DNA of 64,000 bases, taken from contig SCHM01000004.1 in NCBI GenBank assembly GCA_004123355.1, forward strand, positions 2,822,316 to 2,886,315, read 5' to 3'. Position numbers and translations under genes: made by a program. This stretch comes from Amphirosellinia nigrospora (lineage: Eukaryota; Ascomycota; Sordariomycetes; Xylariales; Xylariaceae). Positions 2,147 to 29,015 of this stretch are shown here, one piece after another (the stretch's first letter is position 1; each line of letters opens with the position of its first letter). The notes beneath the pieces were generated by a model, which was not told the origin of the DNA, did no database searches, and worked only from the letters and a program-made list of their open reading frames with translations.

Positions 2147-4113
2147 CTATACCGGTCGCTCGCTAAGCAACACTAGGCGTAACCCCTTCAACGCACCCTC
2201 ATCACGCCACTTCGTCCAAAGATCAATGAAAGCCGCAATCCCACCACTCCAAGGTGACCGTCTCGCAGCCTTGATCAGCTCCTCCTGAGACTTTCCCTCG
2301 GCGGGATTTCCAGGGCCCATTTCAGCAGAGATATAGCTCGGTGTGCAGACGGAGAGGACAGCGAACCGCGCCGCGCCCTGCAAGATGCGCATGCTCCACT
2401 CTTGCTCCGCGTCGGCGTCTACCTCGACGACGACGCGGCGCTGCGTCTTGGATCCGTCCCCTACCGCCGCGTGCCCCGCCGCGATCATGTATGCGGATAT
2501 CCGCGCCAGGGTATCGAGCACGTAGCTGTGGCAGGGGTTGATGCAAGCCTGCGCGACGCCGAGCCAGAAGATATTCGGGAATCCGTTCGACGCGACGCCG
2601 TAGAGTGTCGCGATACCATCCGTCGCGAACTTCTCGGTTAGATCCCGCCCGTTGCGCCCGTAGACTTTAATTCCAGCCCGGATCGACGGGTCACCACCGT
2701 CGCTAGAGGGCGATGTGTACCCCGTGCTCAGGACGAGTATGTCGACGGGGTACTCGACGCCATTAGCCACGACGCCGTTGGCTGTCATGCTATCCAATCC
2801 CTTCCCGTCCGTGTCTACGAGGTGCACGTGCGGCTCGTTGAAGGTCTCCAGGTACATGTCGCTGAAGGTCGGCCGCTTGCACCACGCGGGGTACCACGGG
2901 GTCAGCTTCTCAGCCGTGGCGGGGTCTTTGACGACGTCTTTAACGCGCTGGCGCACGCGTGCGGCATTAGGTGCGTCCAGCGCGAGGAAGTTGCCGATCA
3001 CCTCGCCGGCCTTCTCGGGCGGGACTACAGCGAAATCGGGGTCGCCGGTTAGCGCGCGGTACGCGGGCTGGTGCGTCCACTCGTCGTCGACGACGTTGAA
3101 CTCGCCCTCGGGTAGACAGTGTGACATGCTCTGGGCGAAGTTACGGTTTCGGGCGTCGAACCAGCCCGGCCCACTGGCTATCGAGGTGGCCCACTCGTTC
3201 GGGTCCGTCGGCTTCTGCCCGCGCGTGAACACGGCGCTCGGCGTGCGCTGGAACACGTAGAGCTCCTTGGCGTACTTGGCCAGACATGGCACAGCCTGAA
3301 TAGCCGTCGCGCCCGTACCGATGATCCCGACTCGCTTTCCGGCGAGTTTAGATAGTTCCGGGAAGACTTCCTCGGACGAGCCACCGGTAATGTCGTAGTT
3401 CCACAGGGAGGTGTGAAACATCTCGCCCTTGAACCCCTCGACGCCGGCACCCCGAGCTTGGGTATTTGGGGTTTTGCTAGTAGACCAGCTGTCATGAAGA
3501 CGAACTCGGCGTTGGCGACGAGAGGAACCTGCTCTCGCCCCTTCGGGCCTTGGGAAGTCGTCATGTCGACCTTCCAGTTCCGGGCCTCATCGTTCCACGT
3601 GTACGAGTTTACTTGGGTCCGGAAGAGGATCTTGTCTTCTAATTGGTACTTCTTGACGACGTTTTGAAGATGGTGACGGATCTCGACACCAGAGGCATAT
3701 TTATGCGAAGGCATGAAACCAGTCTCTTCCAGTAGGGGCATGTAAATGTAGGCCTCAATATCGCAATGAAGGCCCGGATAGCGGTTCCAGTACCACGTGC
3801 CACCGACTCCGCCAGCCGTCTCGACGAGCCGGATTTGATCAGCAGTGAAGCCCTGCTGGATGAGTCGTACGGCAGCGACGATACCCCCAAGACCGGCGCC
3901 TGCGATCAAGAACTTGGGGCAGTCGCCCTGCTTGATGGGCGCCGGCTGCGCATCGAGAGCTGCGTGGTCGGCCCATACATCGTCGGCGAGGTGGCGTAGA
4001 CGGTCGTTGCTACTTTGCGACAACTGCTGAAACTGCGCGAGGCCTTCAGGCTTCACGCGCTTCTGGGCCTCTACGGCGTATTTTTGTTGTATCTGTGCGA
4101 ATTCGGCCGCCAT
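2147..4113 (-). CDS. FAD-dependent Baeyer-Villiger-type monooxygenase
   Basis: This is a flavoprotein monooxygenase expected to insert oxygen next to a ketone (ester or lactone formation) or to hydroxylate, using FAD and NADPH. Visible motifs, in order, are an N-terminal extension of about 60 residues, the FAD-binding GAGLGGIVAAVRL, then GGVGGTWYWNRYPGLHCD, then the BVMO fingerprint FKGEMFHTSLWNYD (F-x-G-x3-H-x3-W), then the second Rossmann motif GTGATAIQAVPCLA. The chosen start is the second in-frame Met (MAAEFAQIQQKYA) because the 13 preceding residues do not look conserved. Length is about 650 residues, usual for the 4-hydroxyacetophenone-monooxygenase-like group. The two halves lie in different frames, with one single-base shift just before the fingerprint near 3450. 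It is divergent from the cyclase gene, which suggests joint control. It is probably a tailoring enzyme of the adjoining PKS cluster; substrate unknown. Confidence 0.85.
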
Positions 4114-5273
4114 ATTGGGTAGAAGAAGCCAGTCCGGCGCTAAGCAGAGCAACTCGGAACTTAGAGACTTATATCATGGGAGGAGGCGCCCCTGGGTAAT
4201 ATATCTCCGAGAACGTGTACGAATACGCTTTAAATCCGTACTTCCAGACTCCATTGTGGGGTTAGCCCCTGGTAACTTGGCCGGTAAGGGACTGGTGAAG
4301 AGGGACCGAGTAAGACACAACGACGAGAGATTATTTATTCAGAGCAAATGTGGACGCCAAGACTAGTTGCCAAGTCTCGTTATGCCCTAGACAACGAACG
4401 TCGACCCATTGATAGGTAATTATCAGTCGTTCGGTGTCGATTTTGGCCTTGCATAAAGATAAACACTGCATCGGATGGACGTCAAGCGGCCTCCCGGATC
4501 GGACCACTACCCATTCCATTTCTTGCATAACTGGGATCTGCCCACGCCTCTGGAGCTAGCGGTCTGCAAAAGATTTGTATTTTCCGTTGGCAGCTCCGTA
4601 GGGCGAGAGGGGATGTTCAAGGGTCCCACATGGTTGCTTAACACCCCGCATATCGCACTAACGTACCCCTCGCAGAAATGCACAGCGTATGCCATATTTC
4701 GTAGATCACGATCGGAGAGATAGTTAGTGACACAGTTAGTCAGATTACTGTGTATTCAAGTACGTTAGAGTAGAGATGGCGCATTTGATTCATTGCCCAG
4801 AATGAGTTAACACGTCAGCAGCGGGGATTTCGACCAAGCGCTCAAGTACACGCCTTTGAGGATAGGTTCGGTTGGATGGTAAGCAAGGGACGAAAACTGC
4901 GCGGTTACCTGCCAAGCCTCGACGTTGGCTCTCGAGACTTGGCGATAGAAGGAACGATAAAAAGATGGTTGCTAGATTTCTAATGAATCCGCGTATACTA
5001 GCGTTGTACGGAGCAAGGCCACCCACCCGGCAAAGCTAAGCGAGGTAGTAGGCAGTCACACTACGTTCGACTTAGATGCGACGGATGGAGGCCCAGAGTG
5101 GTCGTAAAATGAGGGGAACACCCTAGATTCGGCAAGTGAATGACATATAGATCGTTTCGACTGTAGCGTGCGTCTTATATGAATAACTGGGTCGGGAATA
5201 AACGATAATATGCAGACGTCTCCTCCACATCTAACTTGTCGTATCACGGGAAAGGAAAAGGAAAAAGGAAAAG
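4114..5273. promoter_or_regulatory. Shared divergent promoter region of BVMO and cyclase genes
   Basis: This 1.16-kb region separates two head-to-head genes and has no convincing coding sequence. It contains a CGG-N4-CCG inverted triplet at 4487-4496, a spacing some Zn2Cys6 proteins can bind, though such a short motif can occur by chance. A purine-rich AAGGAAAAGG tract lies directly upstream of the cyclase ATG. Confidence 0.45.
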
Positions 5274-6586
5274 ATGGATTTCACAAAGATCCCGGATTTT
5301 GATAACCTTCCAGAGGTGAAAGACATGCCCCAAGGCTGTGCTTGGGGTATCTTCGACACCGAGAATGACAAGAAGGACCTCGTGGGCACTCTCAACTACC
5401 TGACCCAAGATGTCGTAAAGGGTGCGTGTGCCGAAGCCAGAGATGGTGTATCGGTATCTCTCAAGTGAGTCTCAGTAACTTGTATCCGTCTCCATAAAGC
5501 TGGCCACGGCCATTGACTAGCCTGTAATAGTTGGCCGCTGAATGCTATGGGTTTTCCTCTCCCGGGAGGATACATCCCACTCACAAACAGATGACGTTGA
5601 AGGAAGCAGGCTTATCTGACGGTGCTGGTTGGGACGACGAGATCCACTTCAACACACAGCTCAGCAGCCAATGGGACAGTCTGGTGCACTGGCATCATCA
5701 GCCTTCCGGCCTCGCTTATAATGGCATCAAGGTGACCAAGGAAGGACTCGCGGCCGCGAACACGGCGGAGAATGCAATGCCGACCCTCGACCATTGGCAC
5801 GCCGCGGGTGGGCTCGTCGTCCCGCGGTGTCTTGATCGATTTCAAGGAATGGGCAGAGAAGAAGGCGCGAGCAGAGGGCAAGACAGGTGATGATGCTATC
5901 GTTCATCCGCTCGATGGTCATCGTATCACGGTAGAGGAGATTGAGGCCGTTGCAAAAGATCAAGGCGTCGAGTTTCGACACGGCGACGTCCTCGTAGTTC
6001 GTACAGGGTTAACTGAGTATCTCCAGGCCCCGACGCCGGAGGTATTTGCAAAGTTGCAGAACCAAACGATCTCTGGAGGTGAGTTTGACCCAGTCCCTCA
6101 CTCAGTTTACCTCTAGAGTCGTCACGTCCGACGACCCAGAGTAGCCTCACAAGTCACCATTCGGCCAGAATCTAACAGTGGGCGCTTCAGTACACGGAAC
6201 GATGGAGTCGGTCAAATGGCTATGGAATAAGCGTTTCTCTGCCGTTGCAGGAGACGCATGGGCGTTCGAAGCACTGCCCCCCATCAAAGAAGACGGCACT
6301 GCGTCGACACATCTCGAACTAGGTACGTCGAGAGGAGCGCGGCTTGATCGAAGTCGGGGATAGATGACAGAAGAACCATATGGCTGACATGAGACTTACA
6401 CATATTTTAGTTCTTCATCCTTGGTTGCTCTCCATGTTCGGTATGTCGATCGGTGAACTGTGGGATCTTCGAGCCCTCTCGGCACACTGCAAGGCATCCG
6501 GACGGTACAGCTTCATGCTCACATCGGCGCCGCTGAACATCCCAGGCCTGGTGGGTTCGCCGCCCAATGCGTTGGCAGTCTTCTAG
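5274..6586 (+). CDS. Putative cyclase (PF04199, kynurenine-formamidase-like fold)
   Basis: The product matches fungal members of the cyclase family, metal-dependent hydrolase-like enzymes of about 320-340 residues. Recognisable blocks are MDFTKIPDFDNLPEVKDM at the start, DEIHFNTQLSSQWDSLVHW followed by HHQPSGLAYNG, a metal-site-like HWHAAGG, RGVLIDFKEWAEKK, then HGDVLVVRTGL and the C-terminal WLLSMFGMSIGELWDLRAL. Three GT-AG introns fit: about 5467-5529, 6079-6178 (joining ISG to VGASVHG) and 6323-6410 (joining LEL to VLHPWLL). Two extra one-base frame changes occur inside exon 2, near 5565 and near 5815 beside a CCC run. It is divergent from the BVMO gene. In polyketide or aromatic pathways such enzymes may cyclise, dehydrate or hydrolyse; the reaction here is unknown. 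Family call is firm, activity is not. Confidence 0.8.
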
Positions 6587-7164
6587 ATCATCTAGACTAG
6601 ATCAACCGGGGCGGGTCAAGATCTGAGAAAGGTGCAGACTGTGAATAGTGTAGAAACTACCTATTTAAAGTAATGAAACCAGAAGCAGGCATACTCAAAC
6701 CTAATCACTACTTGCTAGCGCCATGTGAGGACCCCAAGGCAAGGCGGTTTATATAAATACATTGGAACTGTAAAGTCTCAGGCCCGGCCGTGTAGTTACA
6801 ATAAACCTAAGCCTCAGAATGAAATACAATGCTTGCATGCGGTGCAATGTAGGCCAACACCCGTCGTGTCGCATATCATGTCACACACATCAATGATTGC
6901 ATAGCTACTTAGATAGGTGCTCGGGTAGGGTTGGGCCTACGGAGGTATCTCTCACGCTAGGCCAACTGCGGCCATGGTCTCCTTTCAGCTGAGAAATGGC
7001 TCAAAATGGTTGGCCGCCCCTCGCTCCCCTTCCCTTCGGTCGGCGGCCGGTTCTCCAGACTCCGTTCAGAATCGTCTGTCGGCGCGTCTCCCTGCCGCGG
7101 ACCACTTCCACCAATAGAGGAGCTATAGAAGTACTATTCATGTATCCTCGCGTGCGCTGACAAA
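6587..7164. promoter_or_regulatory. Intergenic region upstream of the Zn2Cys6 regulator
   Basis: There are about 580 bp between the cyclase stop and the regulator start, GC-rich near 7000-7100. It presumably holds the cyclase 3' end and the regulator promoter. No specific motif was recognised. Confidence 0.4.
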
Positions 7165-9960
7165 ATGGATCCCGCCTCGTTAGATCCCCGTCTGCGCGAG
7201 GCCGGCGAGGACTCTATCGTCGTCCACGATGCACACAACACCCACAACACCCACGAGCGACGAGACACTGCCACCACCGTCGCAGCCAGCGACGACCCTG
7301 ATGACCGTGATCATGACGACGACCATGACGACGAATATGACGAATATGATTCAGTCGAGAGCTCCCCCGTCAACATCAACGACAACACCAATACCAACAC
7401 CAACATCAACACCAGCAACCACAACTACAACGGCCACAGCAGCCATCGTCCACGACAGCAAACGTCTTCTCGCCGTCGCCAGCCACGCCCTCGGCCTCTA
7501 GCGCCATTCCCATCGCACCCGCACCGACCCTCACGCCCGCTGGTGACGGCACACCCACGACCCCAACGATCCGAAGCGTCCGCGTGCTTGTGAGGCCTGT
7601 CGCGGCCTGAAGGTCAAGTGTGAGCCCGACCCGCTCAATCCTGATGGCCCTTGCAAGCGATGTGCGAAGGCCGGACGGGGGTGTATCGTCACCCAACCTA
7701 CGAGGAAGAGACAGAAGAAGACGACAGTCGTGTTGCCGAGCTCGAGAAGAAGATCGATGCCTTGACGGCCAGTCTGCAGGCCACCCGGAGCTCCGGAGGC
7801 CAAGGTCCGCCACCACCACCGACCCCGACACCACCACCCCAACGCATCTCCGCCGCCGACCATGCAAACACCAAAATTGCGAGGGAATGGGGCCCACCCG
7901 TCTTCCCCCCTCTTGACGGCTTCAGACAGGACCAGACCGCCATGGCTGGACAGAAGCGGAAGTACGCCGAGTCCCGAACGGGAAAGACGACATGAGCGGA
8001 CGGCGTGTATCGAGTGCCACTCGCCAGCCGCCTCAGTTCCAGTGTCAGCCCCGCCAGACGTGGTCGATCGCGGCATCGTTACCGTCGATGAGGCCACCGT
8101 CCTCTTCCAGAGGTACACAGATCGCATGGCCCCCCATCTGCCCGCCGTCGTCTTCCCGCCCGGCACCACGCCCGATGAGATCCGGAAATCATTCCCTATC
8201 CTGTACCTCGCCATCCTGTCGGTGGCCTCTTCTGAGACCCCGAACCTGCAGCGCCAGTTGGTCAAGGAGCTGATGCAGATCTTTGCCGATAAGCTGATCA
8301 TCCAAGGCGACAAGAGCTTGGAGTTGGTGCAGTCCATGATCGTCAGTGTGGTCTGGTACTTTCCACCTGAGCATTTTGAACAGCTCAAGTTCTACCAGAT
8401 GATCCATCTAGCTGCCGTCATGGCCATCGATATTGGCCTGGGGAAGAGGAAGAATAGCCCCAAGTCTCGCCTGATTCCGTACACCTGGCGTGATCATCCC
8501 TTCCGGAAACAGCCACTGCCTGACCCGTCCACCATCGAATCACGTCGGACATGGCTCGCGGTCTATTTCCTGGCCTCGAATGTGGCCATGGCCTTGCATC
8601 GGCCAAACTTGGTGAGGTGGCAGTCCTTTATGACCGAGTGCATGGATATTCTCGAGTCTTCGCCCGAAGCCGCTTCCAGCGACCGATATCTCTGCCACCT
8701 AGTATGGACCCACCGTCTCGCCGAAGAAGTTGGCATCCAGTTCTCAATGGACGACCCTAGCGTTTTCATCAACGTAACGGATCAGAAAGTACAGTATGCA
8801 TTGAGAGGGTTTGAAAGAGACTTGGCTAAATACTGAAAATATACCGAAAGAGGACAAGCAACGTAAGTATACTCCCTCCTCCGTCGTGTTGTGAGTTACT
8901 GATCGGTATTAGCATCACTTCTCCTGAGTTTTAGTGTCCTGAATTTGTATATGCATGAGATTGCGCTGCAGACAAACGAGGATTATACTTCATCCAACAC
9001 AGAGGGACTACGTGATCCCATTCCGGGCCTAAGTGATAGCGTCACCGCCGCCCATATCGGCGCATTGTCTTCGTGCCTTACGGCCATAGATGGCATATTT
9101 GAGACGTTTTTGTCACTCGATGTCTTCACTATTCGCTGTTTGCCGATATTCAATTTTGTTCGGGTCGCCTACGCCGTGGTCGTTCTCATTAAGATATATT
9201 TCAGCGCGAGCTCGCCAATGCAGAGCTAGGCAAGGTGATCAATAAGGACAACATGAAGGTCGCGGAATACCTCGACAGACTGATCGCTAGATTCAGAGAG
9301 ACCACCGGACAAGATAATTCTCGCCCCGCGGGCAAGTTCCTTGTAGTTCTCATCATGGTGCGGGGCTGGTTCAATCAACAAGGCCAGACACAAGGCCGAT
9401 CGCAGGGTCCAAAAGTCGATCCCGACTTGAAACCGGCAGAGACTCCTCAAACAACCCTGGTCGCCGCCCTTCAACGTCTACGGATTCCGGACCGCACGCC
9501 AACACAATTCACGATCAACAGCACCAATCTTATCAACCACCGCAGAATAGCAAACAGTCGGAATACACCCGGCACACCCCCCTTCAGCTACTATCCGAGA
9601 TCGCAACGGGGAACGGCCCACCCCAGAATCAGGGCACCGGACCACATTCCGTCCCTGGCCTGAACACATCCGGGCAAGGACATTCCCCATGGGGAACGGC
9701 CGGGGTGCATCTACCTTATATGTATGATCCGACTACGGGTATGCCCACATCCGCGCCGACATCTACGTCCGGTGGAATGACGGGGTTAGCGATGGGGGTC
9801 AGCCCCATCTCCCCTGGGCGGCAGGTCCGCTCGGAGATGATGTCAATTACCTGAGCATGGGCATGGGCGACGGCTTTGAACAGGCGATGGGACTCACACT
9901 GACAGGCTTTGGCGGCAATAGTCCCGGTGACAACGTCAGTTACGAGAACACCCTTCGATG
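7165..9960 (+). CDS. Zn2Cys6 transcription factor, probable cluster regulator
   Basis: This is a fungal binuclear zinc-cluster activator acting in the nucleus. The N-terminus is low-complexity, with acidic D/H/E runs then an Asn-Thr repeat (about 7374-7430). The zinc cluster lies at about 7580-7680: CEACRGLKVKC, ten residues, then CKRCAKAGRGC, which gives the full C-x2-C-x6-C-x10-C-x2-C-x6-C. A coiled linker follows (RVAELEKKIDALTASLQ). A middle homology region runs from about 8060 to 9420 and includes FPILYLAILSVASSETPNLQ and KVAEYLDRLIARFRETTG with RPAGKFLVVLIMVRGWF, reminiscent of the Leu3/War1/PrtT group. The C-terminus ends GDNVSYENTLR. A probable intron lies at about 8863-8912. The coding sequence changes frame at several other points, at least three before the middle region, plus an in-frame TGA at 8834. 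Its place inside the cluster suggests it controls it; targets are inferred, not shown. Confidence 0.8.
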
Positions 9961-11066
9961 ATGGGAGATCCTAACCTCTTGGCGTCATGGATAACTTCCC
10001 TCCCAATGGAGGAATAACTTTTATTCGTAGACCCCTTGAATTTTGACCTAAATTGCAATGGGACGATGGAAAATGTACATAAGTCTTGTCTTGCCTTTCT
10101 CGGTTTGAAAAAAGGGGTAAAATGTCCAAGAGAAATACTGTTTAAGCCCAGCTGGCTACCTGGTTGTATTATTTGCTTTATTACATCTTCTACATTCTCT
10201 GGCTGTACACTATTACCTCTGAATTAGGCTTAGCGGGTGTTTAGGCCGGGTTGTCGGTTATGGTATGGTTATACGGGTAGGGGTATATGGTCGTGTCTCA
10301 CTAATATAGAATATGTTGTGTAGATAGGCGTGAGCCGGGTACAAAAACATGGAATAGTTTATATGTCTGCTTCGCTCCGCCCTTAATATTGCGTGATTCG
10401 TTAGGTTCTGACTTTGCTGAATTGTGTTGTGAACTAAATGCGTTGTTGGCCGAGGTAGCTGAGCAAGTTGGTATGGGGGTGAAGGAGTATAGGCTAAGTG
10501 GGCGTCTCGTACGGTTTGATATACAAGATTAAGGTTAAGGTTTTAGTTCTGTCTAGTTTGAAGGTTGTTTGTAAGTAAACGTCTATTGCTACGCCAGAAT
10601 TGGCTTGTATTTTATAAAACCAGAATAAAGTAAATAAATGACAGCTGTCATTAGTATCAGAAGAACCCCGCGAAGTGAGGCGTGACGACATAACAGAAAC
10701 AAATGGTTAAACTCAGGTTCCAGCTTCTCCTCCATCTATCCAAGGCGTATTCTCCCGACCATTCAAGTAATAGTCATAAGAAATTCCCTCGCTGCACACC
10801 CTCTATCGACCATAACCATCCAAATCACCGAGTTGTTCTATATCGTTCTAGGCTCTCAAGGTGGAACTCATATTGAATCTGATGCCCATAGCTTCTCAGC
10901 AGGCGAATCCACAGTCCATATCACGGTTTCCATCGTCATAACCACCAGTGCTGCACCCCCGAGAGGTGGAGAACTGATAGCCTGCGTAGGCGAATTGGAC
11001 CGGATCGTCGTCCACGGCACCGGCGTTGATGACGACAACGTATGGCAAGGCGCTGGTCACAACACC
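9961..11066. other. Intergenic, no gene recognised
   Basis: This contains the 3' flank of the regulator and AT-rich sequence. Small open frames, such as the one at 10833-11219, run into the adjacent LTR and are not supported as genes. Confidence 0.5.
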
Positions 11067-11445
11067 TGTCACACAGATCCTGGTCAGTGCGCAATACAGT
11101 GCCACACAGGGTCTTATACGGAGCTCGCGAGATATTACCTTACGAGGCTGAGGCAGTTGTGCGAGGTTGAGTCAGTCGCACGAGGTTATCGTGAGTCTCA
11201 GAAGCAGATACCGAGCTGAACTCGAACACCGAGACACTCGCCTCACCGGCTACACAGGTCTCTAGATCTCTGTCCCGTAAGGGACTACGACTATAGGAAA
11301 GAAGGAAAATTCTGAGCATAAAAGGGCAGGTATCCTCCCTTTGACATAATAAGGAACTTAGATCTGTATAGCTCCTTCGGCATCATAGTTGCTTATTACT
11401 CAATTTGAACCTTATTCTAAGCTCTCTATCTGAGCTCTTGTGACA
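11067..11445 (+). mobile_element. Solo LTR of an LTR retrotransposon, copy A (fossil)
   Basis: This is a 379-bp segment starting TGTCAC and ending GTGACA. It aligns over its whole length with the reverse complement of 29234-29589. No element interior (gag or pol) adjoins it, and I find no matching target duplication. It is a degenerate, probably old solo LTR; the superfamily cannot be told from an LTR alone. Confidence 0.75.
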
Positions 11446-11733: not shown

Positions 11734-14700
11734 TCACTGGTTTTCTGCATCTATTTTAAGATCACTCCTTTCGACTACAAGTTTGCCAATTGCAGCGATA
11801 GTCATCCCGCCCATGATCTCGAAGACAGCGACCTCCGCCCTGAAATGGATGCCCACCCAGTTTCGTAGCTCAACGGCCATCAGGGAGTCGACTCCGCAGT
11901 CGGCAAGGCGTTTATGGGCGTCGATTTCCTCAGGCGAGATCGCCAAGGCCCTCGCAAGCTTGGTCGCTAGAGCCATGACCACGACTTCGACTTGCTCTTT
12001 AAGCCCGGGGGCTTGCCTAAACAACACGCCTACGTCAACTGTAACATCGGCTCCGTTACTTTGTTGTGGCGCTCCGTCAAGACGAGAAAAGCCGATGAAC
12101 AACGGCCGGCGCGCCAGGGGCGTCACGGGCTGACCTCGGGCAATTAAGTCTCTCGGTGTCACCACGCCTATCAACAGTTGGCTTTTTTCGGCTGCCAGTA
12201 CAGGTAATGCGGGGTCGCAATAAATATTGAGCAATGACATTAGTTCCTCTTTCTCGATGTGTCCCATGTCTGCGGTGTTCTTCCTGTGGCGCTCGTAGTC
12301 CTCGTTCTCTGCAATGATGCCAATGGTGCGCATCCAGCCGACGTCGAGGGAAACGGCTTTTTCACCTCGGTGACTCCGGTAACGGGCAAGGGAATCCTAA
12401 GATATAAACATGAATTAGACTCCACCCTTAAATGTATAAGACTTTGCTAACGCGGCCGAAGATAGGCATAAAAACTTCCGAGCAAGTTGTACTATCGGCA
12501 TTGTAACAGACGAATTAATATCGCAATACTAACCTGGAACGCGCATCCCGCGGCGTAATTTGACTGTCCTGGGCTTCCATATATGCCTGCTAGGGAGGAT
12601 AAGAGCACAAAGAAATCCATGGATTTCGGCAGCAGGTTATGGAGGTTCCATGATGTGCGCATCTTGGAGCTCACAGTGAGATTCCATTGCGCGAATGTCA
12701 TATTACTGAACACGGCATCCTATTACAATCAAAATAACATTAGAGCAACTTTCGAGGGGATATAAGATACTCAAATCCAGATACACGTACCTGGAGCACC
12801 ATTGCTGCGTTTATACACCCTCGGATGGGCGGCATCCGCTGACTGCACTCTCCAAGAACACGCTTCAACGCGTCTGCGTTAGCTACGTCACAAGCTGGCG
12901 TTTCGATATGAACGCCGAGCTCGATGAGCTCGGAGGTGACTTTAGATGCTTCAGCGGACCCCAAGCCTCCGGAACGCGAGGGCACAATGAGATACCGAGC
13001 CCCTTTGCTGGCTAGCCACCTGAGGATCTCGCGGCCGATACCTCCTAAACCGCCAGCAACGAGATATGATGCATTCGGGTCACACATCCAGTCACGACGG
13101 TCTAAAACTCGCTTCTACGCAATTTGGTCAGCAAGATCAGCGATGGTTCTTTTTAAAATCAGCGGTGTTTACGTACCGGAACCATTTCTGCATCATTAGC
13201 TTCGAGAACGATGCGTCCCGTGTTCTTCCCACTCTGCATAAAACGAAACGCTTGTTCGACTTCCGACAGCGGATACATATGCAGCGGTTCCGGATGACGA
13301 AGCAGCCCACGAGCTACCAAGTCCATCAATCCACGCAGAAGTTCAGAAGCCAGATCTGGATCAGCCAATCCTAAGTGATGTAAGTCCACAGCGATGAAGC
13401 TGATGTTGCGCGCAAAGTTGGACATGGGTAGGGAAGAATTGCCCACGATGTCTGCTTTACCGAGTTCGATGAAGCGGCCGAAAGGGGCGACACACTCCCA
13501 GGAGGCACGAAGCCCGCCACCGGAGAGGGAGTTAAGCACCACGTCGACCCCACGTCCACCCGTAGCACGCATCACGCCCTTGGCAAATGTCGTGTTGCGG
13601 CTGTAGAAAATATGGTCAGCCGGAATGCCAAATTGATCAATTAGCAGTTGCTTTTTTGTGTCGAGTCCAACTGTTGCAAAGATCTCAGCCCCGACCATCT
13701 TGGCGACCCAGATGGCCATTTGCCCCGTGCTTCCCGAGGCCGCGTGAATTAGGATGCTTTCGCCCCGCTGTAGCCGGGCGACTTTGATTAGCGAGTGGTA
13801 TGCCGTGATGCCGGGACTGACCACCGACGCGGCAGCCGCGAACGATAGCGAATCGGGGATCCGGATGACCCCTTGTGTGTCCGCCCGCGGGTAGGTACGC
13901 ATGCAACCTGCGCCAGTCATTACAACCGCGGTCTCCGCACCGGAGACCCTGGACCTCGGGTCCGGTGCGGACGACTACTCCCGCACAGTCGTATCCAAAT
14001 GACTGTCCCTCGAGCCGACCAAGCGCTACAAAGATGTCTCGGAAGCTGAGACCCACGCTTTGGCTTCAATCTCAACCTCGTTGGCTTGCAATTGACTCCG
14101 GGTAATTCGTCCTCGATGAACTCCAAACTGTCGAGCATGCCGCGGTTTTGAATCGCAAGTTTCACTGGAGGCCCAGACTTCCAGGGCTTGACCTGGATCT
14201 GAGGAGACACTAGAGCTTGGACCTGATTGTTAAGTGTTGACTCCTCGTAGATACGACCAGTTTGGAGGATGTGATTGTGGACAATGTACTCGTCATCTGG
14301 CGACACGAGATCGGACTTGAATGCTACTTTGAAGACATCCGCTATATGAATAGCGCAGTTTCTCATGTCCGAGTGGCCTGTCTCGAGAAACAGTGTCACG
14401 ATACGCCGATCGAGTGCCTCTGACCGCATGGCTCTCAGAAACCCGACCGAGAGATGATGCTGAGCGTACTGCGCATCGTCGCACCCCTGGACATCAGGTA
14501 GGGCGGTGACCCAGAGTAAGTTCTTCACCTTGTCCATCATATCTTTCAGGGTCTCGAACGTGTCCTCCGAAAGCGACGAGAAGAAAGGGTGATCCATTTC
14601 CAGCAAGACAATCATGACATCTTGGGCGCTGATCTCAGTGTTCTTGATGTCCCAAAGAGAGAGCACCTTCATTTTCCGAACCTTCAGTGATTTTAATTCC

Positions 14701-17700
14701 TGCTGAGAAAGAACCTCACCTAGGGAAACCTGCCGTTCATGTTGACTGTCCAGAACCAAAAACAGTGTTGCCTCTCGCGGTATATCCTGCAAGTCTAGCA
14801 GCGGCTTTGGCTCAACGGCTTTAGAGAACACAATGCCGGAGAGGTGAGCTCGGTCATCTTCGTAGTCCCTGAAGATCATATCATTTCCCGAGAAACCTGT
14901 TTGCTTCAGTACCTGATCCCATTTTTCTGCCGTGATCGTAGGCCCATTCGACCGCCAGCTCTCAACACTCAACCACCACCTCAAACACACCAAACCCGAG
15001 ATTCGCCGCTATCGAATAAGGAGCAAGAACTTCGAGAAAGACAAGATATCCACCAGGTTTGATGGCCTTGCGCAGATTGCTCAGAGTCACCTCCAAGTCT
15101 CTCGTAGCATGGATGACGCTTCCTGCTAAGATGATATCATAGGCCCCTCCTCGAGTCCTTCAGTCAGAGGGTCTTTCTCAATATTGAAAGTTTTAAACTG
15201 CATCCTCTCCTGAAAGGCGCCACCGAGTTTATCCCGGACAGCCTCGGAAAACCCAGCTGATATATCAGTGTAAATGTATTCGGCAAAGGCATCACCGCCA
15301 CGACACCTTTCCAGCTCTTGAAGTGCCGAGAGTATGCACCGTGTGAATCCACCCGTTCCGCCACCGACTTCGAGAATACGCATCAGGGGATTTTCATGGG
15401 TGGCAAGCTCGAGGAATTTTCTCAATCGGGAGTCGCAAAGGCGATCAAAAATGTCACTGTAAAACTCCTCGGCTAACCCGGAAGTGATGAGCAACTCGAG
15501 GGGATCGGCTTGGCCGCGGATAATAGACAAGATGTTCGCGCTAAGCACCTCATATAATTTCCACTTTGGTTTCTCTTCGCTTAGTCGCGCAAGCACCGCT
15601 TCGATCGGAGGTCCATCAGCAGGAAAATGAGCCGACGGGCGCTCCGCCACGTGCCTTTGCATCCACTCAATCAACTTCGAAATATACTCGGGCGCTTCTG
15701 AGAGATCGGCAGCGGTTAAGTCATTGAGAGTCCTTCTCACGACGACATCCATCGCATCTTCAAGTCTCGGGTAGAATGAGCTCATCCCCGTGTCGTCGTC
15801 CGGAATTGAATTCGCATTGCATATCTGGCAGAGCTGTTGCGCACTCAACAAGCTCAGCTGAGGCTTCCAGTCAATGCCGTAGAGGAGTTTGAGTTTTGTT
15901 GCGCCCCCTGAGTCGACACGTGCAACCGACCTCATAACCACGTTGCCTATTTCACATAATGGTTTCATGGTGGCCTCGTCGAGAAGACAGGTAGTAGCGT
16001 GTAGCCCACTGCTATCAAGAAGTCTCTCCGCAGATGTTCTTATCTTTACGGCTGTCGAGTCTGCCCAATTTGTGGCCGAGATCCACATGTCGTGTATCTC
16101 ATATGGCACCAACGTGACGCCCGCGTCTTTCATCATGCTGGGTCCATCCACCATCGATAGGTGAATAGCCGCGTCTAAAACTGCTGGGTGGACGAAGCAG
16201 CCTTGGATCCTATTACAGTCGAGTGGCACCCGAGCAATTGATGTTCCGGCGCCATTGTGTCGGATCTCATCTAGTAACTGAAACGTCTTTCCGAACGTGA
16301 TGCCTGTCTCTCTCACCCTTTTATAGAGTTTGGTATGGCTTATTGGCGTCACGCAGTCATCGCGTGACTCACAATATCGCTGTACAATTCTCTCATCGTG
16401 TATGCGCTTTTCCGTTCCCTCGTCGACCTGTGTCCGTCCCTCTTCGTATTGGATTTGGACTGTTGCTTGGAAACACATATTCCATCGGTCATTGCTGTAA
16501 GCGAAAATGCTGATCCGCGACCACGTCGACTCTTTCTCGTATGATTTCCGCAGAGGCCGCATGTGCAAGACCGTCTCCGTCGTTGATCCTTCAGAAATGC
16601 TGATGGCGCTGATGAACTCGGCATCCTTGATGCAGAACCCAGCAACGGGGCAATCCGCCAGCGCCATCTGCGCCACGGCCTCGATGGTCATTACGAGCAT
16701 TGCTGTCCCCGGTAGCAGAATCACGTTGTTGATGAGGTGGTCCTTGAGCCAAGGGTTGTCTCCGTGTTCCAGAAGTTCCTCCATCGCGGCTCGAGAGGAT
16801 TCCAGTCGTGCGCTCGTACTCCTAATACCGCGTTTTTACCACCTTGTCTCAATCGATAATCACGGCTGAGACGAGACTCGAACCAGTACTTCCTGGAGTT
16901 GTCAAACGGGTATTGTGGACAGTCAACAAGGAAGGGCATGGGCTGTCCACTTGTTGAAATTAACTGGTTGCTGGCGCTAACAGATACTTTGTAGCCGCGA
17001 CAGAACAGATGCCCGACGAGCTCTAGAATAGTCCGTGTGGCAGACTCATTCCTGTGAAGAGCGTATGCGTAACTCACTTCACCCGGCCGGCTAAGTTTCA
17101 GAGTGTCTCTTATCGGACGGCGGAGGGCACAATGAGGTCCAATTTCGACAATGTCAGTGATAGTTTCCTCATCAACAATGCTTACTCCAGACCCCGTCTC
17201 AATCATGGCACACATAGCATCCGTAAACCTTACAGGCGAGACGAGATTATCAGCCCAATATTGCGCGGTTGACAGCGCTTCCGGGGAGATCGAGCGGCCG
17301 GTAACTGAAGATATCATGCTGACTGAATTGACAAGGTCCGTCGAGTCTAGCGTACCCAAAAGATCAATGTATTCTGATGCCAGAGTCGACATGATAGGTG
17401 AGTGATATGCAACACCAGTTCTGATCTTCTGCGCAACTATACCAGTTTCTTCAAGATGCTTCTGAAATGCGTCTATGGCCTTCTCATCTCCAGAGACCGT
17501 GCAATTTTGAGGACCGTTCACACATGCGATGTGGAGCGCCTTCTTGGCACCGTATATGCGATTCTGTAGCATCTCTTCAATCTGAGACTCTGGCAGATTT
17601 ACAGCTATCATGGCACCAGGACACGACGCATTCGTTACTAGCCTAGCAGCACCTTGTCCTCGATAGTACGCTACTTTCAGGGCAGACTCTTCGGTCAAGG

Positions 17701-20199
17701 CCCCTATCGTATACCTAAAACGACGTAAGCGAGCCGTACAGTCTAACCCCTGACGAGTACTTACGCAGCGGCGATCTCGCCGGAGGAATGTCCAACGACT
17801 GCAGACGGGCTGATCCCAAAGGATCTCAAGAGCCGTACCAATGCTATCTGAATGGCAGTGCATAAGGGCTGACTATAATCGGGTTGATTAATCTTGTCTT
17901 CATCCGATAGTGCGTCTGGGCATGTTAGTTGGGTAGTAGTCACATCTTGCCGTACCACTTACCTAGGATAGACCAAGTACACCCCAGATCTTCGAAAACT
18001 TTGCCTGCATCAAGCAATGCCGTCTGAAATTCGGGGTATTCAAGGAGCTCCAGGCCCATCTTTGCATACTGTGCACCTTGGCCCGTGAAAACAAACGCCA
18101 GTCCCTTCTTGATCGATGCTCTGACCAGCTTCTTAGTTGGAAATATCTCCGTATCGCTGACTTGGTGGGTGGGATCAATCACTGAGGATGCCCGCCACGA
18201 CATTTCGCTCCTCCGGGTCGCTAGAGTGTAAGCTAGTCGGTCGAGGTTGGTCTGGGACCCTAATATCCTTGACATATAATAAGTGCCGTATTCTTTGATC
18301 ATGCGCCTTAGGGCGTTCTCATCCGAAGCGCTCCAAATCAGCAAACGCGGCTTGTTTTGCGCGTTGTGAGAGTCACCGTTGACACACCCATGCACCTTCA
18401 CTGGTAGATGCGTGCCGTTGATGATCCCATTCCACCGTTTACTTTTTGGCGGATCTTGCTCTCTAGTTGGTTGTCAAGACCCAGAGCTACGCTATTATGG
18501 TTACCCGTAAGCCCTTGACTCTTAAGATAGTTCGAAGCATCGTCCAGTATCAGGTGAGAATTTGTCCCTCCGAAGCCGAAAGAATTAACCGATGCTCGAC
18601 GAAGCCCTTCTGTAGGCCAAGTGACGGGCTCTGTAGGGACCTTTGCTCCCGGCGTTAGCGAGGTGATCTTCTTATGAGAAGACACGCTTGAAGCTTACCT
18701 CGGTGTTATAAAACTCGGTGTCAATGGCAGGATTAATCTTCTCGAAGAGCGCATTAGGCGGGATGACACCCTTTTCTAAAGCCATTATGGTCTTCACGAC
18801 TCCGGCCAACCCGCTTGTTCCTTCCAAATGGCCAATATTTGATTTTATCGATCCCCTTGGAGAGTTATAAGTTATTCATGTGAACCGCGCGTCGTCACTT
18901 TATAGCGACTTACACGTATAATGGTTGTGATTTAGACCTCGATGTTCGGAACACGCGTCCTATCGCCTTCATTTCAATCGGATCACCAACAGGGGTTCCG
19001 GTGCCTGTCACAATTCCACAATGCGGTTAATATGCCAAGCATCAAGCTTGCGGGTTGGGTTGGAAGTCAGACTCACCATGAGCCTCCACATACCGAGTAA
19101 GGGAGTAATCCAGCCCGGCTTTCCTATAAACCTGACGAATCATCGATTCCTGAGAATCGGAGCTTGGCTGCGTAAGACCCGGTGTGCGGCCATCTTGATT
19201 TGTGGTACTGGCCCTGATAACGGCACGTATCATATCCCGTCGTGGAGGGCCTTGGGGATCGCCTTGATCACTAATGCTACGATTCCCTCGCCCCTAGCGT
19301 AACCGTTTGCTCGGTGGTCGAAGCTATGGCAAACGCTATCTTCTGATAAGAAGCCCATATTTCCCAGCAGCACAGAACTTTCCGGACCAAGCATGAGATT
19401 GGACCCAAAGACCAGAGCCTACTTCTAGTTAAATCAGTGTTGAAGCAACGAAGGACAGGCTACTCACTGTTGTTGCGTATCCGTTGTGTATGTATTGACA
19501 AGCTAGATCGATTGCCACCATGCTACTAGAGCACGCGGTATCTACGAGAAGGCTTGGACCGCGCAGATTGAAGAACCAGCTCACTTTATTGGCGAGCATG
19601 GCCGGTGCTGTCCCCGTAGCAGCCATTCGCGGAGCTTGGTCGATATCTTTCGAGAGAAAGCGAGCATAATCATCCGTGCTCATGGCTGCTAGGACAGCCG
19701 TATCCGAGCCACTTAGAGTGTCGAGGGAGAGGCCCGCTACACGCAGTTACGGTTAGTGTTGATACACCCACTCGCAAGGACCGACATCAGACGCCGAAAG
19801 AACTCATACCATTTTCGAAGGCGTGATAAACCGTCTCCAAGGCTAATCTCTGCGCCGGGTCCATGGAAGAAGCCTCCTTGGCAGTGATGGAAAAGAATGG
19901 TGCGTCAAACGCTACTAGGTCCTGCTCGATGAAATGACCGCCGCGGGCGTAGACCTATCGTTCGTGTCAGCTTGATTCCACAGGGCGGATAATCTCTGAA
20001 AAGCTGAGAGCGAAATATACAGTGTTTGTGCGGTCTTTTCCTCCGTCGGCGAATGTGTCGATGTTGAGTCGATCGGCCGGCCACTCGGTCATGACGTTCC
20101 TCTTACGAGTGAGTAGGTCCAGAAGCTCTCATCGTCGACGGTGCCCTGTGGCAGCTTGAAGGCATAGCCGGTTACGGCAAGGGGTTCTTGATGTGCCAT
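11734..20199 (-). CDS. Highly reducing polyketide synthase, KS-AT-DH-cMT-ER-KR-ACP
   Basis: This is an iterative type I PKS making a reduced, possibly C-methylated polyketide. Domains in protein order: KS (about 18.8-20.2 kb) with active site VDTACSSS, second His in VEAHG joined over an intron to TGTPVGDP, and third His in [13 protein letters not shown] (about 16.9-18.35 kb) with [10 protein letters not shown] and [12 protein letters not shown] (about 15.9-16.8 kb) with WLKDHLINN and [11 protein letters not shown]; methyltransferase (about 14.9-15.6 kb) with [13 protein letters not shown] (about 13.16-14.1 kb) with [14 protein letters not shown] and [13 protein letters not shown] (about 12.5-13.1 kb) with [10 protein letters not shown] and SNYAAG; ACP (about 11.8-11.95 kb) with [13 protein letters not shown]. 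No thioesterase domain follows, so release must be in trans. The start [14 protein letters not shown] is the only one before the KS. Several short introns are evident. The frame also changes at perhaps half a dozen further places, so this copy is either interrupted or carries sequence errors. It is divergent from the P450 gene. Product unknown. Confidence 0.92.
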
Positions 20200-21446: not shown

Positions 21447-23179
21447 ATGGCGCTACTCGGTCTTCTTACTTCGTATCTCGCCTCCGCGGCCGCTGTCTAT
21501 GTAGTATGTATTATTCTACATCCCATGCTGACGCTTTCAGCTGACCGGTCGCAGTGTCTTGTTCTGGGCTATCGCATCTTATTGCATCCGCTACGAAACT
21601 ACCCCGGGCCGCTGACTGCGAAACTGTCGGGCGCATATGGTGGGTTCCTCGCTCTGAGACGTCGTCTTCACCTAGAGACGTACAAGAACCATTTGAAGTA
21701 TGGTATGTAGATATCAACGAGTGCCTAAATTGCTCTCGATTAACGGTATCAGGGTCTGTGGTCAGACTGGCCCCGACCGATTGGTCTTCAATACCGTCGG
21801 GGCTTTGCGAGGTAGGCATTGGATCACTTCGACGAAACCGAGCATATTGACATAGGCTTATTGTGAGAGCCTTAGACATTTATCAAAATGAGGCAATCGC
21901 AAAGTCTTATCTCTATTCTGCGGCGCAGCCCGATCAAAGTAATATCTTCACGACGACCAACAAGAGCGAACATCGCCCCAAGAGGAGACTTATCAGCCAG
22001 CTTCTCTCGGATCAATCGATGAGGGAATTCGAGCCAATCATGGTTGGTCGAATTGATGTTTTTGAAGCAACTCCTCGGGTCCGACGCCAAGCCCGTGAAC
22101 ATGACACCCAATTGTCGCCATCTCGGCCTCGAGATCGCAGGTCTCCTCGGCTTCGGGTACGATCTCAAACTTCAAACCGACGAGGCTCATAGGTATCTGA
22201 CCCAAGCCATCACCTTCGGAAACTACCGCGTCAATGCTTGTCTGCAGTACGCGCCGTTCGCGCGAATTAAACCCGGCATCATCCTAGGTCTTTTCCCCAA
22301 TAGTCTACGCACCAAACTCTTCGCCACAATCTCAAAAATGATCACGTCTCGACTCGCGGAGCCGGTTGATGCGAGGCACGATCTGCTTTCCGTCTTCCAC
22401 TCTGCTTCGGATATGAACGTTCAAAACCTGCAACAGGGGCAGCTCTGGACGGAGGCCGTGTTCTTTTTCGCCGCAGGTTTGTCTTCCCAATGCGATGCCC
22501 AACACAGTATCTGATTATCCTATACAGGTGGTGAGACGACCGCATCCGCCCTTGCAGCAACATTCTTCTACCTGTCACAACACCAGGAATGCTACCAGAA
22601 ACTTGCTGCAGAGATTCGATCTACTTTTAACTCGGCCGCCGAGATCCGTGGCGGCAGCCGTCTATCGGGTTGTAGATATCTCCGTGCGTGCATCGACGAG
22701 TCTCTCCGAATATCACCTCCAGTACCCTCTACCCTATGGCGTGAGGCAGTGTCCGGCGGGCAAGGCGAGCCGTTGATCATAGATGGTCATGTCATACCTC
22801 CCAAGACACAGGTCGGCGTGAATATATACAGTCTACATCACAACGAAAAATACTTCCCTGACCCGTTCAAATTCCTGCCAGAGCGATGGCTAGACGGCAA
22901 GGAGACAAGACTTGCGACTTATGAGGCATTGGCGCCGTTCTCGCTCGGGTCCCGGGATGCGCGGGGAAGGCCATGGCTTATCTTGAGACGAGTCTCGTCC
23001 TTGCTAAGACGCTGTGGTATTTCGATTTCGAGGCAGCAATGGATGCGAAGGCCAACGAGAAGGTGTCAGGCTTGGCATATGCGCCGGGAGAGTTTCCGAT
23101 ATATGACCTCTTTGCCGCGAATCATGACGGCCCAAGACTCGTCTTTCGGGCACGAGATAGCTATTTTAAGGAGCTTTGA
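21447..23179 (+). CDS. Cytochrome P450 monooxygenase
   Basis: This is a microsomal-type P450, expected to hydroxylate or oxidise the polyketide using an NADPH-P450 reductase. The N-terminal anchor is MALLGLLTSYLASAAAVYVV, followed by the proline-rich hinge LRNYPGPLTAKLSG. The I-helix AAG/GETTASALAATFFYL is split by a GT-AG intron at 22477-22527. The ExxR motif is CIDESLRISPP and the PERF-like motif is FLPERWL near 22880. The haem region starts APFSLGSR near 22940; the cysteine (CAGKAMAYLET) is in the next frame, so there is a frame change right at the haem loop. Another frame change lies near 21775 beside CCCC. Other likely introns are about 21711-21756 and 21809-21863. Length is about 500 residues, usual. 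It is divergent from the PKS, which supports a tailoring role. Confidence 0.85.
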
Positions 23180-23478: not shown

Positions 23479-24878
23479 CTAACTCCGCTGTAGGGACGAA
23501 GGTGCGACCCACGGGTGCTGTCGAAGGTAGTTTGCATCATTATCCTCCAAGTCATAACCCTCGGTGGTCGTGAAGTCTGTCGTGCGCACAATGCTACCGT
23601 GCGGCATGAAATTCTTAGGTTCGACACCGACACGCCGAGCAACATGATCAAGACTTCCTTCCTTAATCTGCTCATACTCCTTTAGTTGAAGCGGGTTTTC
23701 TGAATTCGACTGGCTCGTCCCGCTACTGCTAGACGTCCGTATGGTCGACTTAATCGTGGTATAGAGCTTGCGTATTGAGGTGCACGTCTTGGGCACCGAA
23801 GGCACGCAGGCAACGATAAAGAGGAGCGTCAACTCGGCAAAGCCAGCCAGGATCACTGTTCCCACCTGGTAGGTTGCGTCCTTGGTGTACAGGTAACCAA
23901 CGCTGGTAGAGATGCGGATCGCTGCGACAGCGACGTTGCTAGTTGAAATGTGTTAGGCTCACCGAGTCCGCATCGCGAAAGTAGACAATGGGGATTATAT
24001 GCATACGTACAGGAGTGCAACAGCAAAGATAAACGAGATGCCAATCTTCTTCGACGTCGACATATGAAGCTTCCAGATGACCATTTGTGGTAGTACGAGG
24101 ATGGTCAAATCAGCCACCAGATTGATGCTCGCGACTGCCGTGATGAGTGCTTGTTGGCTGATACAGTGACCGCCGGGATCAACGGATCCCAGATCTTCGC
24201 GCGTGGAATGCATGACAAGTTCTCGGCGAAAATGATGGCGACGTAGAACGTGATGACCACCACCAGCAGTATGTGACTAGTCCAGAAGAAGGCGTTCCGA
24301 GTGCCCTTTGGTACGAATATTTGAATCCAATCCAGAATGATCGCCGCTCGAATACACAATAGCGACGGGCCTGCGAAGTTCGAGCCAAGATAGATAAGCT
24401 ATTACTCACGGTCAACTACTATTACTTGTGCCAAAATGAATTCTTCGAGGACATACGTATTCGAATTCAGAGACTGTCTTGAGTTGGATATCCCATTGAT
24501 GAACGAATAACCCAGTCAGGTCGAGCAGGCGGTAGACGGCCCAGTCATAGCCAACGTAGAGCCCCTAGATTTATAGAACTTTAGTATGCCAACGAGGTCA
24601 AGGGGTGCTCGGGATATACGCACAAATGCTGAAACGATAAGAAAATCTTCGATGGAAACTTTCTTGACGCAAAATATCCGGGCATAAGCTCGTGTAAAAA
24701 GGAAGATAGTCGATACAATTAGACCGACGGTGACAGTGGTGAAGCACAGCGTATTTCTATTGGGTGGATTGTCGAAATTGGACACAATTCCGGGCGGAGG
24801 TGGGAGAGCAGGCCCATTTAGAAGAGCTTGTTGCTGCTCTGGCGCCAACGATTGAAATAATTCGGCCAAATCTGACAT
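23479..24878 (-). CDS. Rhodopsin-family seven-helix membrane protein (PTH11/SAT-like)
   Basis: This is an integral membrane protein of the fungal rhodopsin-domain family, often called PTH11- or SAT-like and usually of unknown ligand. The start MSDLAELFQSLAPEQQ is followed by hydrophobic helices: TVTVGLIVSTIFLFTRAYA, WAVYRLLDLTGLFV, ILLVVVITFYVAIIFAE, ITAVASINLVADLTILVLPQ, GISFIFAVALL and a last helix in VILAGFAELTLLFIVACVP. A soluble tail of about 90 residues, rich in Ser and Lys, ends near 23479. At least three short introns fit. One extra frame change lies near 24186 at a CCC run, between WDPLI and PGGHCIS. It sits between the P450 and FSH genes but has no clear metabolic role, so cluster membership is uncertain. 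Confidence 0.75.
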
Positions 24879-26479: not shown

Positions 26480-27242
26480 TTATGAACATCTAGCTCTTTC
26501 TATAGTCCGCTCAATTATGCGAACGGCCTTATCTAATCCCTCTTCATCACAAGTCCCAGGGATGTTATGGTTGGCGTGATGTACAAACTCCTCACGAACT
26601 GTTGGGTCACACAATTTGGAGAGCTTCTCGCCCATGTCGGGATGCTGCTCGTCACTATCCGACCAAATATGTGCCGTGGGAACCTTAATCATGACCCCAT
26701 CTACCTCTGGCTCCAGTACTCTATCAGTCCCACGTTGCATGAAGAGGTCAACATCGTAAGGAGTGGCCGCCGAGAAAAAAATCCCACACTTGAAGTTGCC
26801 GGCACCATGCTGGCCGTCGTATAAGAGCAAAGAGGCCGCGATTAACCCACCCTCCGAGAAGCCTATGACGCCGTCAAAGGGACCGTATGCTTTGATAGCA
26901 CGTAGGATCTGAGGCAGGAGTGCTCTTCGTTGCTCTATATCAGGCCCTAAGAAGCGAAATGCCCCACTGCTTGACGCTTAATGCCATGCTTATCAGTTCA
27001 AAATACTCGAACACCGATACATGATGACGTACAATGGAGACCGAGAGGTTCGTCCGAGACGGAGCCGGTTGCAAAGACGTAGGTGTGTCCATCCCCGATT
27101 GTGTGCCGGATTCTCGCGGTTTGTTTCTCAAAAAGCTATTACCGATATATGTCAATAGACGCGCACTAGGTTTTTCCAGCTCACGGAGATCATTGCTTAC
27201 AGCACCATTCGATCCTCTTCCGTGGAAGCAGATGAAGCGCAT
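26480..27242 (-). CDS. FSH-family serine hydrolase (LovG-like)
   Basis: This is an alpha/beta hydrolase of the FSH family (PF03959), the family of LovG, which releases polyketides from HR-PKS carriers. It opens MRFICFHGRGSNGAVS, with the oxyanion-strand motif FHGRGSN, then the exon SVSDEPLGLH. After an intron comes FLGPDIEQRRALLPQIL, then the nucleophile elbow GFSEGGLIAASLLLY. The acid is in HIWSDSDEQHP and the catalytic His in HHANHNIPG. The protein ends RARCS. The size, about 220-230 residues, fits. It is divergent from the TesB gene across 593 bp. The PKS has no TE, so a release role is a reasonable inference, not shown. Confidence 0.8.
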
Positions 27243-27835
27243 AATGTCAGGCTTCCCTTTGTGAACTCCGAGCCCTCTACTATAGGTATTGCGATTGCAG
27301 AAAATTAACCCGAAATATGCCTAGAATTTTATTTGAAATACGTCAAAGCTTAGTTTGGAAGTAAAGAAAGGCGAGTTAATTCGTATAACTAGGTGGAAGT
27401 ACCTACCTATGTAGTTTATACAAGTAATCATGTACTATATGGTGCTCAGCTCCCTGCAAATCAGCGTGTGCAGGCGCAGGCCGCATCTGCTGTGGGGCTA
27501 GGTCATTTGGGCATGCGAGGTACTAACAGCCCTATCAAAATCAGGGCGATGCACAGTCCATGCAAGGTCCTACCGAGAGATGTAACTGGGTACCAAATTC
27601 ATATAAGGCGCCCGCTGCCTAAATAGGCACTTATGTAGTATTCTTCCTCCATTATTCCTTTCTCCAACTGCGCCACCAAAGCTAACCAACACGTTGTATT
27701 ATTTCTCAATACGTGTTTCTCAATTGCGATATTTGAATAGAGTCAATCGGGTCTGTTTAAGCCCTTTTGTTATATCCTCACGCCGACGTCCATTTTGTCG
27801 CCGGGCAACATTTGCTGTTACAAATTAAGCCCTTC
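27243..27835. promoter_or_regulatory. Shared divergent promoter region of FSH hydrolase and TesB genes
   Basis: This is 593 bp between two head-to-head starts, the third such arrangement in the cluster. It has a short CT-rich stretch (CTTCCTCC) upstream of the TesB start and no clear zinc-cluster site. Confidence 0.4.
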
Positions 27836-29015
27836 ATGATGGCTCAAAAGGCACCTGTCGAGTCACTTCTTGCAGTGATCCCTGCGCCAGAAACTGGCTC
27901 TGATACTTATGTAAATGTCAAGTATGTTCAGCACGTGGGGATTTAGGCTGCTCTGTTGTCTCTGACACGCTTAATTCTTCGAGCAGGCCTCTACCATCCC
28001 AAAAGGGTGTTCCATTCGCTTTTGGAGGAAGTATCAGTAGGCAGTCCTAAGTTCTTATTGCAATTGTTTACGGAGGCATCAATGGGATATAGAAGACGCC
28101 TTACCTTGGCTCTGAGACATTATCAAATTCAACCGAAGCTAAATCAATGTTGTTGTAGTGGGACAGTCTGCCGTGGCCGCCGCCGCAACCGTGCCAGACG
28201 CATTTCAGATCTACTCTATGCAATCAGCTTTTCTACGCGCTGTTAACGGCAAGGAGAAAGTCTACTATCATGTCGAGCGTACATCAAGCGGCAGCACATT
28301 TTGCGCTCGTACGGTGCGTGTGACCCAAGGGAATAGCGATACGTGTTATACTTCGACGGTGTGCTTCCAGCGGAACGATAAAGTAATCGGCAAAAACGTT
28401 CTCGACTACCACGTTCCAATGCCTCAGTGCGATGGTATCCGGCCAGATGGGATATCGGAGGAAAAGCTACAGCAGGTTATAGATGCTAATATAGCACGCT
28501 CCGTACCCCTCATACACATCAGTGCCAAAGAAGAGCCGTTTCAGTGGCGGCCGTTCGATAGCCCACAAGGGGTTGATCCGACTGAGTTCTGGGAACGTAG
28601 CTTCGTGCGCTCGCCGGCATTTTCATCTAAGAGCCCACATCTACATCAATCAGCACTGGCTTGGTTGTCTGACACATACACGCTAGGAGCAGCGTTGAAT
28701 GCCAATCTCGAAAAGGTAGGGAAACAGCTGCGCAACGTCACAAGTAAGTAATTCTGAGTTTCTATCTTGATATTGCCTCCAGAAATTGCAGGGGGTTAAT
28801 CATTCAGCAGTGGGCGCAACTCTGACCAACAACGTCTCATTTCATGAGCCGATGGCGAAAGTCGACGAGTGGATGCTGGGCGAGCGTGTGACAACATGGG
28901 GCGCCAATGAGAGGGCAGTTTCACTCAACGGTTCTGGGACATTAAGAGCGGGCGTCTGATCTTTTCAGGAACACAGGAGATTGTGGTTCGTTTACGGGAT
29001 GGTAGTAAGCTCTAA
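27836..29015 (+). CDS. TesB-type acyl-CoA thioesterase II (double hotdog)
   Basis: This hydrolyses acyl-CoA or acyl-carrier thioesters and is often peroxisomal or cytosolic. It starts MMAQKAPVESLLAVIP. Short exons follow (PLPSQKGVPFAFGGSIS), then GQSAVAAAATVPDAFQIYSM, YYHVERTSSGSTFCARTVRV, a long spacer, HLHQSALAWLSDTYTLGAAL and, after an intron near 28745-28810, ATLTNNVSFHEPMAKVDEWM. The C-terminus RFWDIKSGRLIFSGTQE ending GSKL is in a different frame from the preceding GANERAVSLNGS, a one-base shift near 28930. The C-terminal SKL resembles a type 1 peroxisomal targeting signal, common in this family. Its place beside the FSH hydrolase gene suggests release, editing or side-chain supply for the polyketide. 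Confidence 0.8.

Follow-up and report, generated by a model that had tools for sequence, protein, structure and literature searches.

Which of the genes around a highly reducing polyketide synthase (HR-PKS) make its product, and which only lie beside it? The question is raised by a 64,000-nucleotide stretch of the fungus Amphirosellinia nigrospora (assembly GCA_004123355.1, contig SCHM01000004.1, positions 2,822,316 to 2,886,315 of the forward strand), called the window below, in which an earlier note had described an HR-PKS cluster of seven genes, three head-to-head pairs and a regulator. The window was analysed within its assembly of 48.1 Mb in 11 contigs, whose intron-bearing genes and rDNA look fungal and whose ITS resembles that of Xylariales. 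Genes were called from open reading-frame pieces and their profile and structure matches (Pfam, NCBIfam, PDB), and gene ends were read by hand from the sequence. Based on the domain content of the genes, a second, sibling cluster in the same genome and the association of FSH1-family hydrolases with PKS loci, the part from 11.7 to 29.0 kb is considered to be a biosynthetic gene cluster for a reduced polyketide, with a probability of about 0.72, and the genes to its left are more likely neighbours.

Eight genes were found at the locus, all within 27 kb. The seven genes named before were confirmed in place and strand by open pieces and profile or structure matches; an eighth, encoding a PF20684 protein between the P450 and FSH genes, had been overlooked. 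The features are as follows.

2147-4113, minus strand: type I Baeyer-Villiger monooxygenase (BVMO) with extended N-terminus, PockeMO/PtlE-like (PDB 5mq6 matches)
5274-6586, plus strand: PF04199 cyclase gene (PF04199, E 2.2e-6)
7165-9961, plus strand: regulator gene, Fungal_trans with a Zn2Cys6 finger read by eye (PF04082, E 1e-6, on one of three pieces)
11067-11445, plus strand: copy of a dispersed repeat resembling a long terminal repeat (LTR), between regulator and PKS (ends TGTCAC...GTGACA)
11734-20199, minus strand: highly reducing PKS gene (Pfam matches of 10 collinear open pieces)
21447-23179, plus strand: cytochrome P450 gene, paired head to head with that of the PKS (PF00067 and PDB P450 matches)
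23479-24878, minus strand: gene for a PF20684 (Fung_rhodopsin) integral membrane protein (PF20684, E 1.6e-7)
26480-27242, minus strand: FSH1-family serine hydrolase gene (PF03959, E 4.6e-14)
27836-29015, plus strand: predicted gene for a TesB-like double hot-dog acyl-CoA thioesterase (PF13622, E 3.9e-11)
29234-29589, minus strand: second copy of the LTR-like repeat, resembling a solo LTR, just past the TesB gene (5-bp direct duplication CGTGC)

The PKS block and its sibling cluster

The PKS pieces were judged by their order, strand and spacing to belong to a single gene. Pfam matches followed each other as ketoacyl-synt, KAsynt_C_assoc, Acyl_transf_1, dehydratase, methyltransferase (a weak match, E 8e-4), an sdrA-type NAD-binding domain, ADH_N with ADH_zinc (the enoyl reductase, ER), KR and ACP. 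The resulting domain order is KS-AT-DH-MT-(sdrA-type NAD-binding)-ER-KR-ACP, in which KS, AT, DH, ER, KR and ACP stand in the canonical order of a fungal highly reducing type I PKS. The Pfam scan of the open pieces found no release domain and the ACP was the final domain detected, so that release of the chain is expected from outside the synthase.

The FSH1-family gene is the natural candidate for this step. PF03959 matched its C-terminal piece only, the N-terminal piece having no Pfam match, and the search of the FSH piece gave nothing meaningful in the PDB and nothing in NCBIfam. The nucleophile motif GFSEGG is readable, and downstream Asp and His motifs were also read by eye. An FSH1-family hydrolase with Ser, Asp and His thus lies beside a PKS in which no release domain was found, the setting of LovG, itself an FSH1-family protein. 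The genome has 12 FSH1 genes; for eight of them a ketosynthase (KS) place is found at no more than 10 kb, the other four being about 0.4 Mb or more away. With about 2.2% of the genome that near to a KS place, the binomial P is 2.6e-11, or 7.9e-10 when the window's own FSH gene is left out. This proximity supports release of the LovG type, and the FSH1 protein would most likely act on the chain in trans.

Beyond the window, the AT piece of the PKS gave its best matches on contig C7 at about 0.205 Mb (48%) and on contig C6 at about 5.484 Mb (45-54%). The latter place is part of a sibling cluster at 5.479-5.503 Mb, with the order PKS (minus strand), FSH, PF20684 and P450 (all plus strand); order and strands are unlike those of the window. 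A tblastn comparison of 23 window pieces with 43 kb of this contig (C6:5471000-5514000, E <= 0.01) matched the sibling PKS with nine of nine PKS pieces (35-63% identity), the P450 with all three of its pieces (32-55%), the PF20684 protein with all three (36-49%) and the FSH hydrolase with one of two (41-47%). One stray PKS match of 27 residues (E 0.005) was set aside. None of the six pieces of the BVMO (two), cyclase (one), regulator (one) and TesB-like protein (two) was matched in these 43 kb. To the left of the sibling cluster (C6:5471000-5505000), an unrelated gene of the Zn2Cys6 type was seen by eye.

The sibling cluster hence draws the boundary between a four-gene core (PKS, P450, PF20684 and FSH) and neighbours that could mislead a prediction of the product. 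Within the core, the P450 was identified by PF00067 on its C-terminal piece (E 7e-35), two other pieces having no Pfam match, and further by PDB matches to P450 enzymes; a frame break near the heme-binding region makes its Cys ligand unreadable here. The PF20684 family was matched by one of the three pieces of its gene. A role of this protein as sensor, scaffold or efflux component would be a guess.

From these assignments we infer the catalytic steps and the kind of product. The HR-PKS would build a chain with C-methylation, ketoreduction, dehydration and enoyl reduction, the FSH1 serine hydrolase would most likely release it in acid form, like LovG in the case of LovB, and the P450 would oxidise the freed chain afterwards. 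The PF20684 membrane protein would be part of the conserved set, and the TesB-like protein a later addition that may edit or reshape a thioester.

The left-hand genes and the gap ahead of the PKS

The name of the BVMO rests on PDB matches, since its one Pfam match was NAD_binding_8 in the N-terminal piece, the C-terminal piece having none. The best PDB match of both pieces was 5mq6 (427 and 239 bits); in NCBIfam, the C-terminal piece alone matched PtlE with 298 bits, the cut-off of that model being 1100. Two dinucleotide-binding motifs, the FxGxxxHxxxW fingerprint and the GGxWxxxxYP active-site motif were read by eye in comparison with the motifs quoted in the accessible text of PMC6315744. 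Fingerprint and active-site motif each carry one changed residue, and Ala stands at the end of the second dinucleotide motif. By sequence, the BVMO looks like a sound type I enzyme. Its nearest relative in the genome is only 28% identical.

For the cyclase piece, the PDB search gave nothing meaningful and NCBIfam no match. PF04199 has four matches in the genome, of which the three other than the cluster cyclase are at least 0.75 Mb away from any KS. In the regulator, Fungal_trans was found by Pfam, and the finger is visible by eye only; the regulator piece has no close paralogue, the next match in the genome reaching 26 bits.

The G+C content at third codon positions (GC3), determined from coding pieces (trimmed for all locus genes except the PKS), was highest in the BVMO (0.74) and the regulator (0.71-0.72). 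The other locus genes gave 0.64 (PF20684), 0.62 (cyclase), 0.60 (P450), 0.57 (PKS), 0.53 (TesB) and 0.52 (FSH), compared to 0.40-0.63 for 12 other nearby coding pieces and 0.50-0.65 for five KS pieces. The 20 kb to the left of the BVMO carry a caspase-domain gene and a kinase, both found by Pfam, and HET-like and ankyrin pieces recognised by eye, the HET-like piece having no Pfam match when scanned.

Two inverted copies of one LTR-like repeat of about 360-380 bp (TGTCAC...GTGACA) bracket the block from PKS to TesB. The left copy sits between regulator and PKS, in a gap of 1.8 kb, and showed no target-site duplication at its flanks; the right copy is flanked by its own 5-bp duplication, so that the two look like separate LTR insertions. 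The repeat family is dispersed, with at least 41 places in the genome (the query itself included, and the window's own copy at 29 kb not being in this count) with 40 of 235 candidates scored, and its ends agree to a few bases across 16 fetched copies. Based on this dispersal and on the duplication at the right copy, the idea of a mobile unit bracketed by inverted repeats was rejected.

The core was placed at 11.7-29.0 kb because of the absences from the sibling cluster, the repeat found in the gap at 9.96-11.73 kb and the GC3 values, which are high in the BVMO and regulator. We infer that the left-hand genes are to be excluded from it: the BVMO and cyclase would form a ketone-oxidising pair and the regulator would be a general one, all three more likely being neighbours across the gap than pathway genes. 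Their membership is doubtful; nothing ties the BVMO pair to the pathway and nothing excludes it.

The arrangement of the genes adds little to this question. The three head-to-head pairs are truly present, with gaps of about 1.16 kb (BVMO/cyclase), 1.25 kb (PKS/P450) and 0.59 kb (FSH/TesB). Their weight is small, because at least three head-to-head neighbours occur by chance in 37 of the 256 strand orders of eight genes (14.5%) and no words are shared between the promoters beyond shuffled sequences. Words of 8-12 nucleotides shared among the four promoter stretches showed no excess over first-order shuffles, the lowest P of 30 comparisons being 0.06. CGG-CCG dyads, by whose counts degenerate motifs were covered, numbered 2, 3, 0 and 2 in these stretches and 2-9 in six control stretches. 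The earlier proposal that each pair shares one divergent promoter therefore found no support, the gap sizes themselves not being a sign of sharing.

Two observations concern other sequence. At 52605-56187 of the window, Pfam matches to NPHP3_N/NACHT and ankyrin, together with a 105-bp tandem repeat (53077-53292, about 90% matching), suggest a possible fungal NLR-like gene. Contig C10 appears to begin near ribosomal DNA, as three 5.8S rRNA matches lie in its first 59 kb (104-58492).

Broken reading frames and alternative explanations

Breaks of the reading frame were seen by eye in the PKS (nine, about 1.2 per kb), BVMO, cyclase, regulator (several), P450, PF20684 and TesB genes, and probably in the FSH gene too. 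With most of its genes broken, the locus might be taken for a decaying pseudogene cluster. The HSP70 and TCP1 matches of the same genome, however, showed 18 frame-changing junctions in 25.9 kb (8 in 11.7 kb and 10 in 14.2 kb), about 0.7 per kb, a junction being counted if neighbouring collinear pieces lie in different frames and are fewer than 35 bases apart, which leaves no room for an intron. A few junctions are uncertain (two large overlaps and one 29-base gap), and some chaperone genes have no break. Since joint decay of the chaperone genes is not to be expected, frame-shifting length errors in the order of one per kb are very probably present in the assembly. The PKS rate is of the same order, if somewhat higher. 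By eye, the breaks look like length changes and not like stop substitutions, and neither catalytic motifs nor splice sites are lost. Assembly error is thus the more likely cause of the breaks in the cluster, and decay is very improbable. With such errors, automatic gene calls would be faulty and would give a false appearance of pseudogenes.

It is also conceivable, though rather unlikely, that a single compound is made by all eight genes. The BVMO would then convert a ketone of the polyketide to an ester or lactone, the cyclase would close or open its ring, and the regulator would switch the set on. The genes do share 27 kb, the 5mq6 match places the BVMO nearest to an enzyme that is known to accept large ketones, and the 20 kb left of the locus showed no recognisable biosynthetic gene. 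Against these points, BVMO, cyclase and regulator are unmatched in the sibling cluster, GC3 is high in the first and last of these, a repeat lies in the gap ahead of the PKS, promoter words are shared no more than by chance, and the genome's other cyclases are distant from any KS. What remains of the cluster first described is its centre, PKS, P450 and FSH, which recur in the sibling cluster and of which the FSH is tied to PKS loci; for the same reasons the single seven-gene pathway is not upheld.

The TesB-like protein lies inside the block and allows a further variant. Its first exon matched TIGR00189 (E 3.4e-22, 79 bits, the cut-off being 293) and PDB 1c8u was matched; its second piece gave nothing meaningful in the PDB. 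The genome holds two PF13622 matches, the cluster copy and one on contig C4 at about 9.42 Mb, which is 2.2 Mb from any KS. The catalytic residues of acyl-CoA thioesterase II are Asp, Thr/Ser and Gln. At 28810-28956, the cluster protein appears to have Thr where its paralogue has Asp (the S-L-D stretch before the second hot-dog domain), a comparison made by eye across an intron, with no program alignment of that stretch to a solved TesB, and hence a lead only. The Gln is kept past a frame break (by eye). Having lost the thioesterase Asp, the protein might have been recruited to the cluster for a non-hydrolytic reaction of its double hot-dog fold, such as cyclising or dehydrating the polyketide thioester, with FSH alone releasing the chain; together with the PockeMO-like BVMO this might give a new oxidised or rearranged scaffold. 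We regard this as a speculative and distinctly unlikely outcome.

Several points weigh against the reduced-polyketide cluster at 11.7-29.0 kb as drawn here. TesB is likewise unmatched in the sibling cluster, so that absence there cannot by itself exclude a gene. GC3 is weak evidence, based on pieces, and that of the cyclase does not stand out. The flanks of the PKS on contig C7 (195.0-204.4 and 207.0-216.9 kb) gave PKS matches only and no partner genes. The broken frames make the intactness of the genes unreadable from the assembly, and the basis is the DNA sequence of one genome.

Comparison with known systems

The cluster is of an ordinary kind, one more HR-PKS locus among many. A survey that covered 13 Hypoxylaceae and Xylaria hypoxylon, taken here as a guide to the frequency of such clusters, found HR-PKS in 69% of the PKS clusters; of its 375 gene-cluster families, 277 were singletons and ten had characterised pathways, according to its accessible text (PMC8403587). 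Among titles and abstract starts of the published literature, mostly outside subscription journals, no cluster was recognised as matching the gene set.

The TesB-like protein resembles acyl-CoA thioesterase II in its matches to 4HBT_3 and TIGR00189 and differs from it in scoring under the TIGR00189 cut-off and in the apparent Thr at the position of the catalytic Asp (by eye). The BVMO is nearest to PockeMO and the PtlE-type enzymes, although its C-terminal piece scores far under the cut-off of the PtlE model. PockeMO (5mq6) is the best match of both its pieces, and an extended N-terminus is shared with it (PMC6315744, accessible text).

The nearest parallel to the core is the lovastatin pair LovB/LovG, in which LovG is described as the product-releasing thioesterase for LovB (PMC7870829, accessible text). 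The window PKS differs from LovB in having ER pieces of its own, and the remaining gene set is different. The DH-MT piece of the window PKS matches LovB in the PDB (7cpx), and both systems place an HR-PKS without a recognised release domain beside a hydrolase that acts, or in the window would act, in trans.

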